A stretch of 64,000 bases of DNA from Candidatus Zixiibacteriota bacterium (GTDB taxonomy: Bacteria > Zixibacteria > MSB-5A5 > GN15 > PGXB01), in the NCBI GenBank assembly GCA_900498245.1, contig LS998015.1, positions 194,380 through 258,379 of the forward strand, read 5' to 3'. Made by a program: the position numbers and the translations under genes. This document shows positions 47,132-53,219 of the stretch, one piece after another (positions within the stretch are counted from its first letter, which is position 1; every line of letters starts with the position of its first letter). Below the pieces are notes generated by a model. The model had not been told where the DNA came from, did not search any database, and worked only from the letters and a program-made list of their open reading frames with translations.

Positions 47132-49879
47132 TTACATATTTCCCGCCGTGGCGATGACATAATTGGTCGTGTCGAAATAGCGCCGCGCGGTTCTCATGAC
47201 CAGCCCCCGGCTCACTTTGCGGATATTTTCAAGATAGGTTTCGTCATAGTCGTATCCCACGCCCAGATATTCGTTTACTCCCATATAATAGGCCTGATTA
47301 ATGCGGGAAAGATTGGCGGTCAGATATGAGCCCCAGAGAGAATTGACCGCCTCGGCCACTTCGCTATCGGTCGGCATGGCGGTTTTCAGTTTTTCGATTT
47401 CCGCCAGGATGCCGGATTTGGCTTTCTCGAAATTGGCCGCCCCGGTTCCGATACTGCAGATATACCAGCCGAAATTTCGATCCAGATTGACCCCGGCCCC
47501 GACCGAATAGGCCAGCCCCTGCTGTTCCCGCAGAACTTTCTGGAGACGTTTGGAAAGAACCGCCGCGGTGACATCGAGAGCGGCGGCATCGGGGGACTTG
47601 GCCGACGGCAGAAGGTTTCCGAGATAGATATAGACCTGTTCTTTTTCCATTTTCTGGTGCGCCGTCTTGACTGTCAGGACATTGGCGGGGCGAACCGCTT
47701 CAACCGGGGTGAACCCGGACTTTGGAATTGTCCCCAGCGTGTTTTTTACCAGCGCCATGACCTCTTCGGGAGGCCGGCTGGTGCCGATAGTGACAATCAT
47801 ATTTTCCGGCGAGTAGAAATTATGATGATAAGATTTCAGGTCCTCGGCCGAAATCGAGCCGATAGTGCGGAAGGTTCCTTCAATAGTACGGGCATAGGCG
47901 GTATTTTCAAAAAGGGTCGCATAGAACAGGTCCCGCGCCACTTTATAGGTGGAGCCGCCATTTCGCCCGAGAAGTCCCAAAATATCGGCGCGGACTTTTT
48001 CCACCTGCGCCGAGTCGAAGGCCGGGTGGGCGATCATATCGGAGAAGAGTTCGATTCCCTTGGGGGCGAATTCGTCGATGGTTTCGAATTTCATGAAGGC
48101 AAACTGGCGGGTCGTGTAGCGGTCGTCGTACGGTATCCAGGGATTGTCGTACAAGGTCACCTTGGCGCCGATGGAGGCCAGGTCCTGTGACAACTGCTCG
48201 GCGGAACGGGTGATGGTGCCTTTTTCGATCATATGATTGACAAAATCGGTGATACCGTCTTTCCCGTCCGGTTCCGAAGCGGTCCGGTTTTCCCCGATGA
48301 CATTGAGGGCAAATACCCGGCTGTCGGGATTCGATTTGATAATCACGGTCAGCCCATTATCCAGGACCTGCTTCAGATAATTAGCATATCGCTTCTCCTG
48401 GGTGCCGGTAGCCACCGTGATGGCCGGCATCTTGAATTTTTTTCCGGACGTCAAATCGTATGCAGGGAAAGTTGCTGTCTTGTAATGTGCAATGACTTCT
48501 TCGGCGCTCGGCCCGGTCGGCATATAGACGGACTCATTGGGGTTGTCTTTCGCTTGCGGATAGACAATGGTAATGACATCATTCAGGTTCGCCATGTAAT
48601 CGGCGCAGGCCCGTCCGATATCAGCAATTGTTACCGAGTCGACCCGGTTCTGGAATTTCTCAAAAAAGTCCCAGCCGGTTATGGCCATTAAGGGCGCCAC
48701 CGTGAAACCGTAATAGTGCAATTTCTCGGACATGTAAATATCATTGCACCGCCGGGAGACTTTGTAGCCGTTGAGAAGTTCTTCCGACGGGGGGGTTGCG
48801 GCCAGATTCTTGAGGACGCTGTCGGTAATACGGACGATCGAATCGGCCAGCGCCGCCTGATCAGAAATTAACTGGATATTGAAACGGGAGAATTCCTCTT
48901 TGGTGTCAAGCGATGCAGAGACGGAGGAGACCAGCGGATTGGCTCCTCCTTTCAGGGCTTTCACTAGCGGGGAATTTTCCTCGTCGGAAAGATAGTCCTC
49001 GAGAATAGCGAATGCGAAATAATCCGGGTCGGTATATTTGGGGGCCTCGATCGAGAAATTGATATAGGTTGATTTGGTTTTGGCCGCGGTTTTGAAAGTC
49101 TGTTCGCCCGACAGTTTTTGGTAATCTATCACGGGCGCAGGGGGGAGGTCGGCCCGGGGAAATTTGCCGAAGATCGATTTGACCATCTCGGTCATCGCGG
49201 GAGTCTCAAAGTCGCCGATAATGAGAGCGATCATGTTATTGGGACCGTAGAATCGTTTCCAATAGTCGATTACCGCTTCGCGGGGGATATTGGCGATCGT
49301 GGATTCGTACCCTATCACCGGCCGCTCGTACGGGGTGCCGGCCAGCGCTTTTTCATCGCCAAAATCTTCGGCGGCCGTACCCTCGGCATCGTTATCTTTC
49401 TTCATTTCTTCGATGACAATTTTCCGTTCCTTGGGGAATTTGTCATCGGGGAAATTGGAATTGAAAAGCATGTCGGCTTCGGTTGCCATCCCATAGTTGA
49501 TATAATCTTTGGGCATCAGAACCAGATAGGCGGTGAATTCTTTCCGCGTGAAAGCGTTTATATACCCGCCCAGCCGTTCAATGCCCCCGGAGATCTCTTC
49601 CTGGCGGTGCGAGGCGGTGCCGTCGAAAAGGAGATGTTCCAGAAAATGGGTGACGCCGTTGTTGTACTTGGATTCATACTTGCTTCCGGCCTTTACGAAA
49701 ATCAGCGATGTTATCATCGGAGAGGCATGGTTTTCTTTGAGTATCACCTGCATCCCATTATCAAGTGTGAAACGGCTGATTTTGGCTTCCTGCCCGAACG
49801 CGGCGGCGCATATACCCAGTACGAACAAAGCCGCCATTGACGCCCTTCCCATCCCTGATTTCAGCGACAAACGTATCAT
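47132..49879 (-). CDS. Exported M16 zinc metallopeptidase (two-domain, pitrilysin-like)
   Basis: 915 residues with a signal peptide (MAALFVLGICAAAFG). The first M16 half has the inverted zinc motif HFLEH (residues 78-82: H78, H82 zinc, E81 base); the later acid ligand is expected in the KIVIEEMKKD region. The second half (from about residue 500, ANYLKQVLDNGLTVI) is the inactive M16 repeat and lacks HxxEH. The fused two-half form is typical of periplasmic or secreted insulinase-like peptidases that close like a clam around peptides. Another exported peptidase in a window rich in them. It is convergent with the ABC ATPase and divergent from the secDF block. Confidence 0.93.
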   Translation of the reverse strand: MIRLSLKSGMGRASMAALFVLGICAAAFGQEAKISRFTLDNGMQVILKENHASPMITSLIFVKAGSKYESKYNNGVTHFLEHLLFDGTASHRQEEISGGIERLGGYINAFTRKEFTAYLVLMPKDYINYGMATEADMLFNSNFPDDKFPKERKIVIEEMKKDNDAEGTAAEDFGDEKALAGTPYERPVIGYESTIANIPREAVIDYWKRFYGPNNMIALIIGDFETPAMTEMVKSIFGKFPRADLPPAPVIDYQKLSGEQTFKTAAKTKSTYINFSIEAPKYTDPDYFAFAILEDYLSDEENSPLVKALKGGANPLVSSVSASLDTKEEFSRFNIQLISDQAALADSIVRITDSVLKNLAATPPSEELLNGYKVSRRCNDIYMSEKLHYYGFTVAPLMAITGWDFFEKFQNRVDSVTIADIGRACADYMANLNDVITIVYPQAKDNPNESVYMPTGPSAEEVIAHYKTATFPAYDLTSGKKFKMPAITVATGTQEKRYANYLKQVLDNGLTVIIKSNPDSRVFALNVIGENRTASEPDGKDGITDFVNHMIEKGTITRSAEQLSQDLASIGAKVTLYDNPWIPYDDRYTTRQFAFMKFETIDEFAPKGIELFSDMIAHPAFDSAQVEKVRADILGLLGRNGGSTYKVARDLFYATLFENTAYARTIEGTFRTIGSISAEDLKSYHHNFYSPENMIVTIGTSRPPEEVMALVKNTLGTIPKSGFTPVEAVRPANVLTVKTAHQKMEKEQVYIYLGNLLPSAKSPDAAALDVTAAVLSKRLQKVLREQQGLAYSVGAGVNLDRNFGWYICSIGTGAANFEKAKSGILAEIEKLKTAMPTDSEVAEAVNSLWGSYLTANLSRINQAYYMGVNEYLGVGYDYDETYLENIRKVSRGLVMRTARRYFDTTNYVIATAGNM

Positions 49880-50025: not shown

Positions 50026-50053
50026 TTGACAAAGCCCCTCTTTCTCATATATT
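50026..50053 (+). promoter_or_regulatory. Strong promoter upstream of the secDF leader ORF
   Basis: TTGACA (50026-50031) and TATATT (50048-50053) with a 16-base spacer. A start near 50060 leaves about eight bases before ATG 50068 or 26 before ATG 50086, so translation would be leaderless or nearly so. Confidence 0.65.
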
Positions 50054-50067
50054 GCGGGCGAGTTTTT

Positions 50068-50496
50068 ATGTCTTATACAATTCAGATGAAAAGAAACCGC
50101 GGAATTGAGGGTTGGTGGAGGGCCATTGGGTTCACCCTGATGATCTTTACTCTGGCGCTGGGAATCGCGGCCGTGATGGCCAGTGACCGGCAACCCGGCA
50201 TTTCCGCGACCGCCGACCATGGCCCAATAGCGGGAGCGGTGGCGCCCTGGGCAGATGACGGCATGGTCGCCAACGGTACGGGCTGTCCCGCCGAGCCGGC
50301 TTTCTTTACGGTTCCGGCAGTGGTCGGAGCCTTCGGTATCGACACCAATCGCCCCGGTTCCGAAGCAGTAACTCATTTTTCCTCGGACCAGAGCGGGCCG
50401 AAGGCCTTTACCCCGCGCACCACGACGGCCTCGATTTCGGCCAAGAAGGCCATGGAATTCACCCTGATCGGCGCCAAGCCGTCCGGGACCTCTTAA
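50068..50496 (+). CDS. Short exported ORF upstream of secDF, candidate secretion monitor
   Basis: 142 residues from ATG 50068 (or 136 from ATG 50086). The codons are rich in G/C at third positions like real genes nearby. The N-terminus is a textbook signal peptide: basic MKRNRG, a hydrophobic run (AIGFTLMIFTLALGIAAV) and a likely cleavage after VMA. The remaining ~105 residues are small, Ala/Gly/Thr/Pro-rich, with a lone Cys, and match no family I know. The end reads KAMEFTLIGAKPSGTS. It lies 75 bases before secD on the same strand and shares its promoter. VemP, SecM and ApdA-type arrest peptides have the same position and size, but no known arrest motif is seen; the role is a hypothesis. Confidence 0.55.
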   Translation: MSYTIQMKRNRGIEGWWRAIGFTLMIFTLALGIAAVMASDRQPGISATADHGPIAGAVAPWADDGMVANGTGCPAEPAFFTVPAVVGAFGIDTNRPGSEAVTHFSSDQSGPKAFTPRTTTASISAKKAMEFTLIGAKPSGTS

Positions 50497-50556
50497 ATTT
50501 CCCGCTATTTTTCTTTCCCCGATTTAAGATAATATTTCAACTATTAATTTATAACC

Positions 50557-50572
50557 TAGAGGAATAACTCTA
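50557..50572 (+). promoter_or_regulatory. Small hairpin covering the secD ribosome site
   Basis: TAGAG (50557-50561) can pair with CTCTA (50568-50572), placing GAGG and the first base of the ATG in a stem-loop. The stem is only 5 bp, so weak. It matters only if the upstream ORF controls secD translation. Confidence 0.3.
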
Positions 50573-52281
50573 TGAAAGGTCAAACTTGGAGACTTGCCGT
50601 TACCGGCATCCTGATCGTGCTGGCTTTTATCGGATTCTGGAACACTCTCCGATATTGGACCCTGTCGGCCAGTGACAAAGTGCGGATGGAGGAGATTAAG
50701 CCCGGTTCCGTACAGGAATTGGAACGCAAGGCGATGCGTCTCGGTCTCGATTTGCAGGGCGGGCTGCATGTCGTCCTGCGGGTCGAAATGGAAAAGATTG
50801 AACCATCGGCCCGCGCCGATGCCGTGGACCGCGCCATTCAGGTCATCCGCAATCGTGTAGATTTTACCGGCGTCACGGAACCGCTCATTCAGAAACAGGG
50901 GGATGATCGGATTATTGTTGATCTGCCCGGTTATACCAACGCCGCTCAGGCCGAAAATATTATCGGCCAGACGGCTCAGTTGGAATTCAAACTGCTGGAA
51001 TCGCCTGATAACGCCGCTCTTATTCTGAAGAAAATCGATTCCGTGGTGGCCGCCTCGGTCAAGGCGGGAACGGCGGATGTCTCGGCTCAAGCGACCGCCT
51101 CCACTCCCAAGACAGGAGAATCATCGCCCGCCACGCCGCCCTCGGATTCGACCAAGAAGGATGTTTTTTCCGATTTTCTCAATCAGGATACCAGTCAGGT
51201 AACTAGCGAAGATATCGAGGGTGAGACCCCGTTCACGCAGTATCTGCAGCAGTTTCTGGCGGGAAGCCGGACCAGCACCATGTGGCCGGGATACATAGTG
51301 GCGACAAAAGATCGCGCCCTAATCGAGAAGATGCTGGCCATGCCGGAAGTGCAGAAGGTCATTCCCGAAGATGTTCAGTTTGCCTGGTCGACCCGATCTG
51401 ACATCCGGGATGCTCAGAATGTTTACTATCTATATATTCTCAAGAACAAGGTTCAGTTTCTGGGAAAGAATTTGGAGAGAATTAAACTGGGGCGGGGCCA
51501 GTATCAGGAACATACGGTTGATTTCCGCCTATCCGGCCCGTCCGCAGCGGCTTTTGCCCGTTTGACCGGAGCGAATATTGATAAGCCGCTGGCGATTGTC
51601 ATTGACAATAAAGTTGAATCGGCTCCCTTTATCAATTCCAAGATTCGGAACGAAGGGCAGATAACGATGGGCAGTTCCGCCTCGATGCAGGACGCCCAGA
51701 ATATGGAAATCGTTCTCAAGGCCGGTGCACTGCCGGCGCCGGTCGAAATTATCGAAAAAGACGTCGTCGGCCCGACTCTCGGCTCTGACTCGATTCGCAA
51801 GGGCCTGACCTCATCAATTATCGGACTGATAGCCGTTTTCTTTTTTGTCGGAATTTATTATCGCATCTCCGGGCTGATTGCCGATATCGGTTTGCTTTTC
51901 AACATATTCTTTCTCCTGTCTATCATGGCGGGATTGAGCGCCACCCTGACAATGCCGGGGATAGCCGGGATTATTCTGACCATCGGTATTTCGGTCGACT
52001 CCAACATTCTTATTTTCGAGCGTATACGCGAAGAATTACGGTCGGGAAAGACGGTCCGGGCATCGATCGATGCCGGTTATAACCGGGCTCTTCTGACCAT
52101 TATTGACAGCCACGTCACCACTTTGATTACGGCCGGGGCGCTCTTCATTTTCGGCGCCGGTCCGATCAAGGGATTCGCCGTCTCCCTCTTCTGGGGTGTT
52201 ACCATATCGCTATATACGGCGGTCGTGATTACCAAGACGATATTCGACATTCGCAAGGGTTATCAGACCCTCAGCATATAG
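50572..52281 (+). CDS. secD: Protein translocase subunit SecD
   Basis: 569 residues. One N-terminal helix (TGILIVLAFIGFWNTL) is followed by the SecD signature LGLDLQGGLHVVL (residues ~57-69) and a large periplasmic P1 domain. P1 includes DLPGYTNAAQAENIIGQTAQLEFKLLE and a Ser/Thr-rich insert (residues ~165-205) unlike the short form in E. coli. Five C-terminal helices follow with SVDSNILIFERIREEL and the RND-type AGYNRALLTIIDSHVTTLI. Uses proton flow to pull proteins through SecYEG on the periplasmic side. Ribosome site AGAGGA before ATG. Followed by secF after 14 bases. Confidence 0.97.
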   Translation: MKGQTWRLAVTGILIVLAFIGFWNTLRYWTLSASDKVRMEEIKPGSVQELERKAMRLGLDLQGGLHVVLRVEMEKIEPSARADAVDRAIQVIRNRVDFTGVTEPLIQKQGDDRIIVDLPGYTNAAQAENIIGQTAQLEFKLLESPDNAALILKKIDSVVAASVKAGTADVSAQATASTPKTGESSPATPPSDSTKKDVFSDFLNQDTSQVTSEDIEGETPFTQYLQQFLAGSRTSTMWPGYIVATKDRALIEKMLAMPEVQKVIPEDVQFAWSTRSDIRDAQNVYYLYILKNKVQFLGKNLERIKLGRGQYQEHTVDFRLSGPSAAAFARLTGANIDKPLAIVIDNKVESAPFINSKIRNEGQITMGSSASMQDAQNMEIVLKAGALPAPVEIIEKDVVGPTLGSDSIRKGLTSSIIGLIAVFFFVGIYYRISGLIADIGLLFNIFFLLSIMAGLSATLTMPGIAGIILTIGISVDSNILIFERIREELRSGKTVRASIDAGYNRALLTIIDSHVTTLITAGALFIFGAGPIKGFAVSLFWGVTISLYTAVVITKTIFDIRKGYQTLSI

Positions 52282-52295
52282 CAAGGAGATAAGCA

Positions 52296-53219
52296 ATGTT
52301 TCAAATACTGCATGGAACCAATGTAAATTTCATCGGCCAGCGCTATAAAGCCTTCATTTTTTCGGCGGTCCTGGTGTCCATCGGTCTGTTTGCCCTGATT
52401 ATGATTTTTCTGGGCAAGGCCAACATGGGGATCGACTTCGCCGGCGGCACGATGATTCAGGGTTCGTTCGCGAATTCCATAAATGTTTCCGACCTTCGCT
52501 CCGCGGTCAATTCCGGCGGTTTCCCGGAGGCCTCGATTCAGAAGTTGGACCGTTACAATTCCCCCAACTCGTACATTATCAGGGTCAAAGAAACGGCTGT
52601 GGGAAACGAAAAGGCGGTCGATCGCCTTATGAACATTATCAGTGAGAAATTCCCCGGTAATACCTTCACCAAGGATTCGGAGCATACTATCGGGCCGGCG
52701 GTCGGGGAATCGCTGCGCCGCAGCGCCATCTGGGCCATTCTGGTTTCTGTTATCGGTATGATTATTTATATCGGCCTGCGGTTCGATTTTCGATCCGGCG
52801 TGGCCGCGACCATCGCGACTTTTCATGATGTCCTCGCCATTACCGGTATCTTCTTTCTTCTGAATAAGGAAATAACGCTCTTGGTGGTCACCGCTCTTCT
52901 AACTCTGGCCGGTTATTCCCTGACCGATACCGTCGTTGTTTACGACCGTATTCGGGAGAATTTGAAAAAATATCGGAAGAAAGGGGAGTTCGTGGAGACG
53001 GTTAATCGCTCCATTAACGAAGTGCTGTCGCGGACCGTTATCACTTCAATGACGGTATTGATAGTGGTAGTGATTCTTTATATTTTCGGCGGCGAGGTCC
53101 TCAGTGATTTTGCTTTCGCCATGATTCTCGGGGTTATAATCGGGACCTATTCCTCGATTTTTGTCGCCAGCCCGATTGTGATTGAATGGGAAGCCAGATT
53201 TCCCAGGCGTTTTAAATAG
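52296..53219 (+). CDS. secF: Protein translocase subunit SecF
   Basis: 307 residues with AAGGAG before ATG. Signature GIDFAGGTMIQ (residues 45-55) follows the first helix, then a short periplasmic domain (DLRSAVNSGGFPEASIQKLDRYN). Five C-terminal helices include GLRFDFRSGVAATIATFHDVLAITGIFFLL, AGYSLTDTVVVYDRIRENLKK and SINEVLSRTVITSMTVLIVV. Partner of SecD in the SecDF complex. It ends at a terminator, closing the operon. Confidence 0.97.
   Translation: MFQILHGTNVNFIGQRYKAFIFSAVLVSIGLFALIMIFLGKANMGIDFAGGTMIQGSFANSINVSDLRSAVNSGGFPEASIQKLDRYNSPNSYIIRVKETAVGNEKAVDRLMNIISEKFPGNTFTKDSEHTIGPAVGESLRRSAIWAILVSVIGMIIYIGLRFDFRSGVAATIATFHDVLAITGIFFLLNKEITLLVVTALLTLAGYSLTDTVVVYDRIRENLKKYRKKGEFVETVNRSINEVLSRTVITSMTVLIVVVILYIFGGEVLSDFAFAMILGVIIGTYSSIFVASPIVIEWEARFPRRFK

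Follow-up and report, generated by a model that had tools for sequence, protein, structure and literature searches.

The locus raises the question of whether the short reading frame directly before secDF encodes merely a small exported protein or a peptide that monitors protein export by arresting its own translation. The window, by which we mean the whole 64,000-nucleotide stretch of a Candidatus Zixibacteria genome that was analysed, carries a promoter, TTGACA-N16-TATATT (50026..50053, with TTGACA at 50026-50031, a 16-nt spacer and TATATT at 50048-50053; score 11/12), and 14 nt beyond it the ATG at 50068 of the upstream frame (uORF, 50068..50496), the candidate secretion-monitor arrest peptide. 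From this ATG the product has 142 residues; from the alternative ATG at 50086 it has 136. The stop codon (50494-50496) is separated by 75 nt from the ATG of secD (50572..52281), which is followed by secF (52296..53219; PF02355, E 2.8e-61). All of these lie on the plus strand, as do the other elements described below, and the gene of an M16-type zinc peptidase, named from its sequence (HFLEH motif), is divergent on the minus strand (47132..49879). This secD and secF are the only ones found by profile search of the 3.5-Mb genome, where two other SecD/SecF-domain matches are weak and lie in long frames of 1076-1182 aa. The uORF begins with a signal peptide (50068..50181; charged n-region of net charge +3, hydrophobic core with a mean of 2.48, cleavage site undetermined), and the whole ORF has no match in Pfam or NCBIfam. 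The promoter, the two ORF lengths, the good signal peptide, the absence of a known domain and the distance to secD on the same strand had all been claimed in the first-pass annotation and are borne out here. Its statement that the ORF starts within eight bases of the promoter is right if the count begins at the presumed transcription start, but wrong if it begins at TATATT.

The promoter is kept in the relatives. The pattern TTGACN-N16-TATNTT is found 5' of the uORF start in 58 of 61 loci, always with a spacing of 16, and in 0.2% of shuffled regions; the three loci without a match belong to family f3. Since an ATG follows the same box by 8-18 nt in 57 of the 58 relatives, ATG 50068 is the likely start of the uORF. 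From so short a distance between promoter and ATG we infer that the uORF message is nearly leaderless, across two families. A looser match to the promoter was seen within the uORF-secD spacer at one of 63 loci, and we therefore suggest that secD probably depends on transcription running through the uORF.

SecD was located in 60, and later in 131, related genomes and the DNA upstream was read, giving a comparison set of 65 non-redundant uORFs. An ORF ending in the motif described below precedes secD in 29 of the first 30 loci examined (in the thirtieth the contig ends 28 nt before secD), and secD lies directly downstream of every one of the 65 uORFs for which downstream sequence exists. The first-pass annotation had proposed aligning the last 25 residues of signal-peptide ORFs upstream of secD as a check; about 25 C-terminal residues prove to be common to three families, and the rest of the protein is divergent. 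In our sequence these residues, the proposed arrest motif, are encoded with the stop codon at 50419..50496, and their core, F-T-L-[VI]-G-A-K-P-S-G-T-S-stop, at 50458-50496. The consensus of the last 12 residues over all 65 uORFs, F-T-L-V-G-A-[K/R]-P-S-G-T-S, abuts the stop, with a mean pairwise identity of 0.85 against 0.17 in the body. All 65 have Gly at -8, Pro at -5 and Gly at -3; Ser -4 and Leu -10 are each kept in 64, Thr -11 in 63 and Thr -2 in 62, and position -6 is Lys in 49, Arg in 13, His in two and Val in one. Weaker conservation reaches back to about -25 ([TS] at -24, [VI] at -20, S/D at -19, L/K at -16, G/A at -15 and Q/E at -13). The near-invariant C-terminus, together with a promoter conserved at the same place with the same 16-nt spacing, is far beyond chance.

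The uORFs share an anatomy as well as a C-terminus. They are 136-178 aa long (median 146), and in all 63 of the 65 that could be scored (two are truncated by contig ends) a net positive n-region precedes a hydrophobic core, as judged by charge and hydrophobicity only. The end of the core is 104-152 residues from the C-terminal end, inside the range reported for the linkers of secDF monitors, among which VemP has a median of 133 (PMC10987492). A second, weak element, G-M-x-x-x-x-x-P-x-x-E-x-x-A-[YF]-L followed by N-x-x-R, is visible some 75 to 45 residues before the C-terminal end in f1 and f4, and is possibly a regulatory element within the linker. The uORF meets all four of the computational criteria of Fujiwara et al. 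2024 (PMC10987492): it is a small protein of unknown function encoded upstream of a sec or yidC gene, it has an N-terminal secretion signal or transmembrane segment, its C-terminal sequence is conserved among homologues, and more than 30 residues separate the signal from the end of the motif. The arrest-peptide inference of the first-pass annotation thus gains support from comparison (conserved C-terminus, linkage to secD, signal peptide), although the stall itself remains unmeasured.

From these comparisons we suggest that the uORF is very probably a Sec-monitoring arrest peptide that senses export; no stall, response to export or regulation of secDF has been measured. An ordinary exported protein, perhaps a partner or assembly factor of SecDF with a C-terminal tail that has some periplasmic binding target, without any stalling, would also have a signal peptide, could be just as completely linked to secDF and would show the purifying selection that is seen over the whole ORF in close pairs. 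We regard it as improbable, because apart from the weak positions in the middle region the conservation is limited to the last 25 or so residues, a length matching that of the exit tunnel, with a body only 17% identical, and because the motif ends at the stop codon without exception. The position of the uORF immediately upstream, under one shared promoter and with no copy elsewhere, points moreover to action in cis. No motif-bearing uORF precedes secA or yidC in the same genome. An arrest peptide could instead report a metabolite, an antibiotic or the state of the membrane, as some arrest peptides, TnaC for example, sense small molecules; a signal peptide and secDF as the target are in keeping with a sensor of export, and we think this reading very improbable.

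The conserved stretch might, given its location in the leader near secD, be an RNA structure or binding site that is merely read as peptide, yet the pattern of codons leaves this almost no room. Third positions vary freely: Gly -8 is encoded by GGC, GGT, GGA and GGG, Pro -5 by all four CCN codons, and all synonymous codons are used. The use of all four codons at four-fold sites indicates that selection acts on the peptide. Lys and Arg alternate at -6 through unrelated codons, reading frame and stop are kept, there is no Rfam match at the stretch, and the spacer beyond it has no systematic structure. In close pairs pN is 0 in the motif with pS of 0.09-0.57 (five/six pairs) and pN/pS is 0.19-0.37 in the body, from which we conclude that the ORF is a gene translated over its full length. 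In the Sec-monitoring arrest peptide that we prefer, the last 25 or so residues would occupy the exit tunnel and the nascent chain would stall the ribosome, most likely with the uORF's own stop codon in the A site. While SecDF-assisted export is active, a pull on the exported N-terminus would relieve the arrest; under slow export the stall would persist, and secDF expression would rise.

The placing of the stall at the uORF's own stop codon is likely but less secure than the arrest itself. It is inferred from the invariance or near-invariance of residues -5 to -2, from the distance to the stop, which is fixed relative to the motif in 65/65, and from the occurrence of all three stop codons (TAA 32, TAG 25, TGA 8). 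At the stall, residues -5 to -2 must already have joined the chain or occupy the A site, and so the P site would be at -3 or later. Against a P site at -1 is the variable residue there (S, G, M or H), which fits less well. Termination arrest has precedents in the NAP-stop, NSP-stop and DGMK-stop peptides (PMC10987492), in CliM of Clostridioides difficile (PMC13183943) and in TnaC, where a rut site adjoins the stop codon (PMC10941005).

How a stall would raise secDF is harder to decide. In SecM, MifM, CliM and the secDF2 of Alteromonas the stalled ribosome exposes a ribosome-binding site, an output that has been demonstrated for the described Sec/YidC monitors (PMC10987492; PMC13183943), and in a few relatives the secD Shine-Dalgarno sequence does pair with the end of the uORF. 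Predicted folds nevertheless argue against the same output as a conserved mechanism here. The median cost of opening the secD start over 62 loci is 6.8 kcal/mol for the whole leader and 6.7 kcal/mol with the share covered by a stalled ribosome removed, and a ribosome parked at the stop changes the accessibility of the secD start by a median of -0.04 kcal/mol. The spacer between uORF and secD is no more structured than shuffled sequence (median z -0.16), most spacers having only weak structure, and pairing between the Shine-Dalgarno sequence and the tract past the stop is no better than with shuffles of that tract (31 of 63). The SecM/MifM-type criterion, a structure that masks the downstream Shine-Dalgarno sequence and is opened by the stalled ribosome, is therefore not met, on predicted folds only. 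The first-pass annotation had placed the secD ribosome site in a small TAGAG/CTCTA stem. This stem exists (50557..50573), but neither its conservation nor a role in sequestration is supported by folding or by the 63 spacers listed, in which it is confined to this genome and a relative of the same genus, and a stem limited to one genus is not part of a conserved system. We therefore rejected sequestration as the conserved mechanism on the folding and duplex tests, and exposure of the secD ribosome-binding site by a stalled ribosome seems to us unlikely without being dismissed. We note small hairpins in some spacers: the genus g19 (loci L102, L103, L137 and L138) has GCCCGA..GGGC about 23 nt past the uORF stop, and several other spacers of f4 have G+C-rich hairpins 10-45 nt past it, with no common sequence.

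What the spacers do share is composition. Directly 3' of the uORF stop is a pyrimidine-rich, G-poor tract (50497..50522), which we propose is a rut-like Rho-loading element or some other control element. Over positions +1 to +20 past the stop, 63 relatives average 72% pyrimidine, compared with 53% in 43 control spacers taken from the window and from 8-kb loci, and G falls to 12-14% from 20-22%. The enrichment over the first 30 nt has p = 2.4e-9, a value that is overstated because related genomes are not independent. The tract meets the TnaC-type criterion of a C-rich, G-poor, unstructured sequence immediately after the stop, and in tnaC the rut site is found just there (PMC10941005). A stalled ribosome may, as at tnaC, shield the C/U-rich tract from Rho and so raise secDF. 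Given the conserved composition, the tnaC-like arrangement and the presence of a rho gene in the genome, this antitermination output is our leading choice; the evidence leans to it weakly, Rho action is untested here, and the preference is a tentative one. Roles besides Rho loading are also compatible with such a tract. The complete scheme, in which a monitor of a new family would stall at its own stop, inhibit both release factors and keep Rho off the pyrimidine tract to drive secDF, is possible but, taken whole, more doubtful than not.

Several known systems resemble parts of this arrangement. We know of no signal peptide in TnaC, the tryptophanase leader, which senses tryptophan, unlike the uORF. 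The likeness between the two is in the stop codon followed by a C/U-rich tract (PMC10941005). VemP, the monitor of Vibrio secDF2, shares with the uORF a signal peptide, a long linker in the same range of lengths (PMC10987492), a conserved C-terminal stretch and a position directly before secDF. VemP controls secD2/F2 (PMC11470409), whereas the secD and secF behind the uORF are the only ones found in its genome. The uORF motif also differs in abutting the stop, and no sequence match was found, although VemP was not aligned directly; among PDB chains the 25-residue consensus had no match. Like the uORF, the RQH (RAPP-like) peptides ApdA and ApdP are encoded upstream of secDF and have a localisation signal and a short conserved C-terminal motif. 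The first-pass annotation had noted that the C-terminus resembles no SecM, VemP or RAPP-type motif, and with the reservation just made for VemP this stands: the core L-V-G-A-K/R-P-S-G-T-S-stop contains no R/Q/H-A/G-P-P, R-A-P-G or R-A-G-P-like motif of the RAPP-like peptides (RQH, ApdA/ApdP, ApcA and SecM). There is a likeness, too, to the stop-abutting arrest peptides of PMC10987492, whose conserved residues likewise reach the stop codon, which in them is required for arrest; their residues are different, their motifs are shorter, and they come from other phyla (Bacteroidota and Firmicutes). CliM, encoded upstream of yidC2 in Clostridia, is also a monitor of a protein-localisation factor, and its C. 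difficile form stalls at the stop, but it is a membrane-segment peptide with a KYxIW motif and acts through a Shine-Dalgarno stem-loop (PMC13183943).

The distribution of the motif is narrow. When 133 genomes of the phylum were scanned with a degenerate DNA pattern for LVGA[KR]PSGT-x-stop, 54 had a match, all of them members of f1 or f4; the reversed pattern, used as a control, matched in none. Among about 85,000 species genomes scanned, the motif with its stop was found at 37 places, all upstream of secD, and at these 37 places as at all 96 motif loci checked secD lies 75-174 nt 3' of the motif. Family f3 and the f4 genomes that lack the exact pattern have close variants at the same place: LLGEKPSGTS, LVGHHPQGTH, LVGAVPSGTM, LVGLKPSGTS, LLGTHPSGTS, QVGAKPSGTS, LLGHKPSGVS, LVGQKPSGVS and LLGLKPSGVS, with longer forms including TLLGEKPSGTS, TLVGHHPQGTH and TLLGHKPSGVS. 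A SecD tree of 34 rows requires one change to account for the uORF, on a branch with support 100/100 that unites f1, f3 and f4; the uORF is absent from f2, of the same order, and from eight families sampled outside the order. As far as the genomes sampled can tell, the system is confined to this single branch of one order of Zixibacteria, with the sister family f2 lacking it. Some lineages without a uORF, f2 and f19 among them, have antisense fragments similar to the divergent M16-type peptidase immediately before secD, and so the neighbourhood was kept while the uORF was either gained or, in f2, lost. Records titled Ignavibacterium, Calditrichaeota and FCB group also carry the motif, but their sequences match genomes of the same Zixibacteria order; the titles look like out-of-date naming differences, and we do not count them as other phyla. 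Two near-identical uORF copies occur in one assembly (G078). One of them adjoins a truncated secD copy and a contig stretch that is masked or gapped; it was rejected as a separate system and is probably an artefact of assembly or strain mixture.

The best reading is that the uORF represents a new family among the known Sec-monitoring arrest peptides, new in motif and in phylum, with its stall not yet shown. In the main text of the arrest-peptide papers searched the motif does not appear, nor is it among the families listed there in PMC10987492. Those papers do not mention Zixibacteria and none contains GAKPSG; a supplementary listing is not excluded. Arrest peptides show that some twelve residues can be enough to inactivate the peptidyl-transferase centre, and the unrelated solutions described are few. 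If our interpretation is true, this would add an independent solution whose near-invariant core is unusually long (about 12 residues and the stop), from a phylum unmentioned in the papers searched, and the 65 natural variants make its residue requirements directly testable. Should the output run through Rho, we know of no earlier export monitor that acts by transcription termination and not by unmasking a Shine-Dalgarno sequence. The uORF would then join a sensor of the SecM/VemP type to an output of the TnaC type, within a single order of an uncultured phylum.
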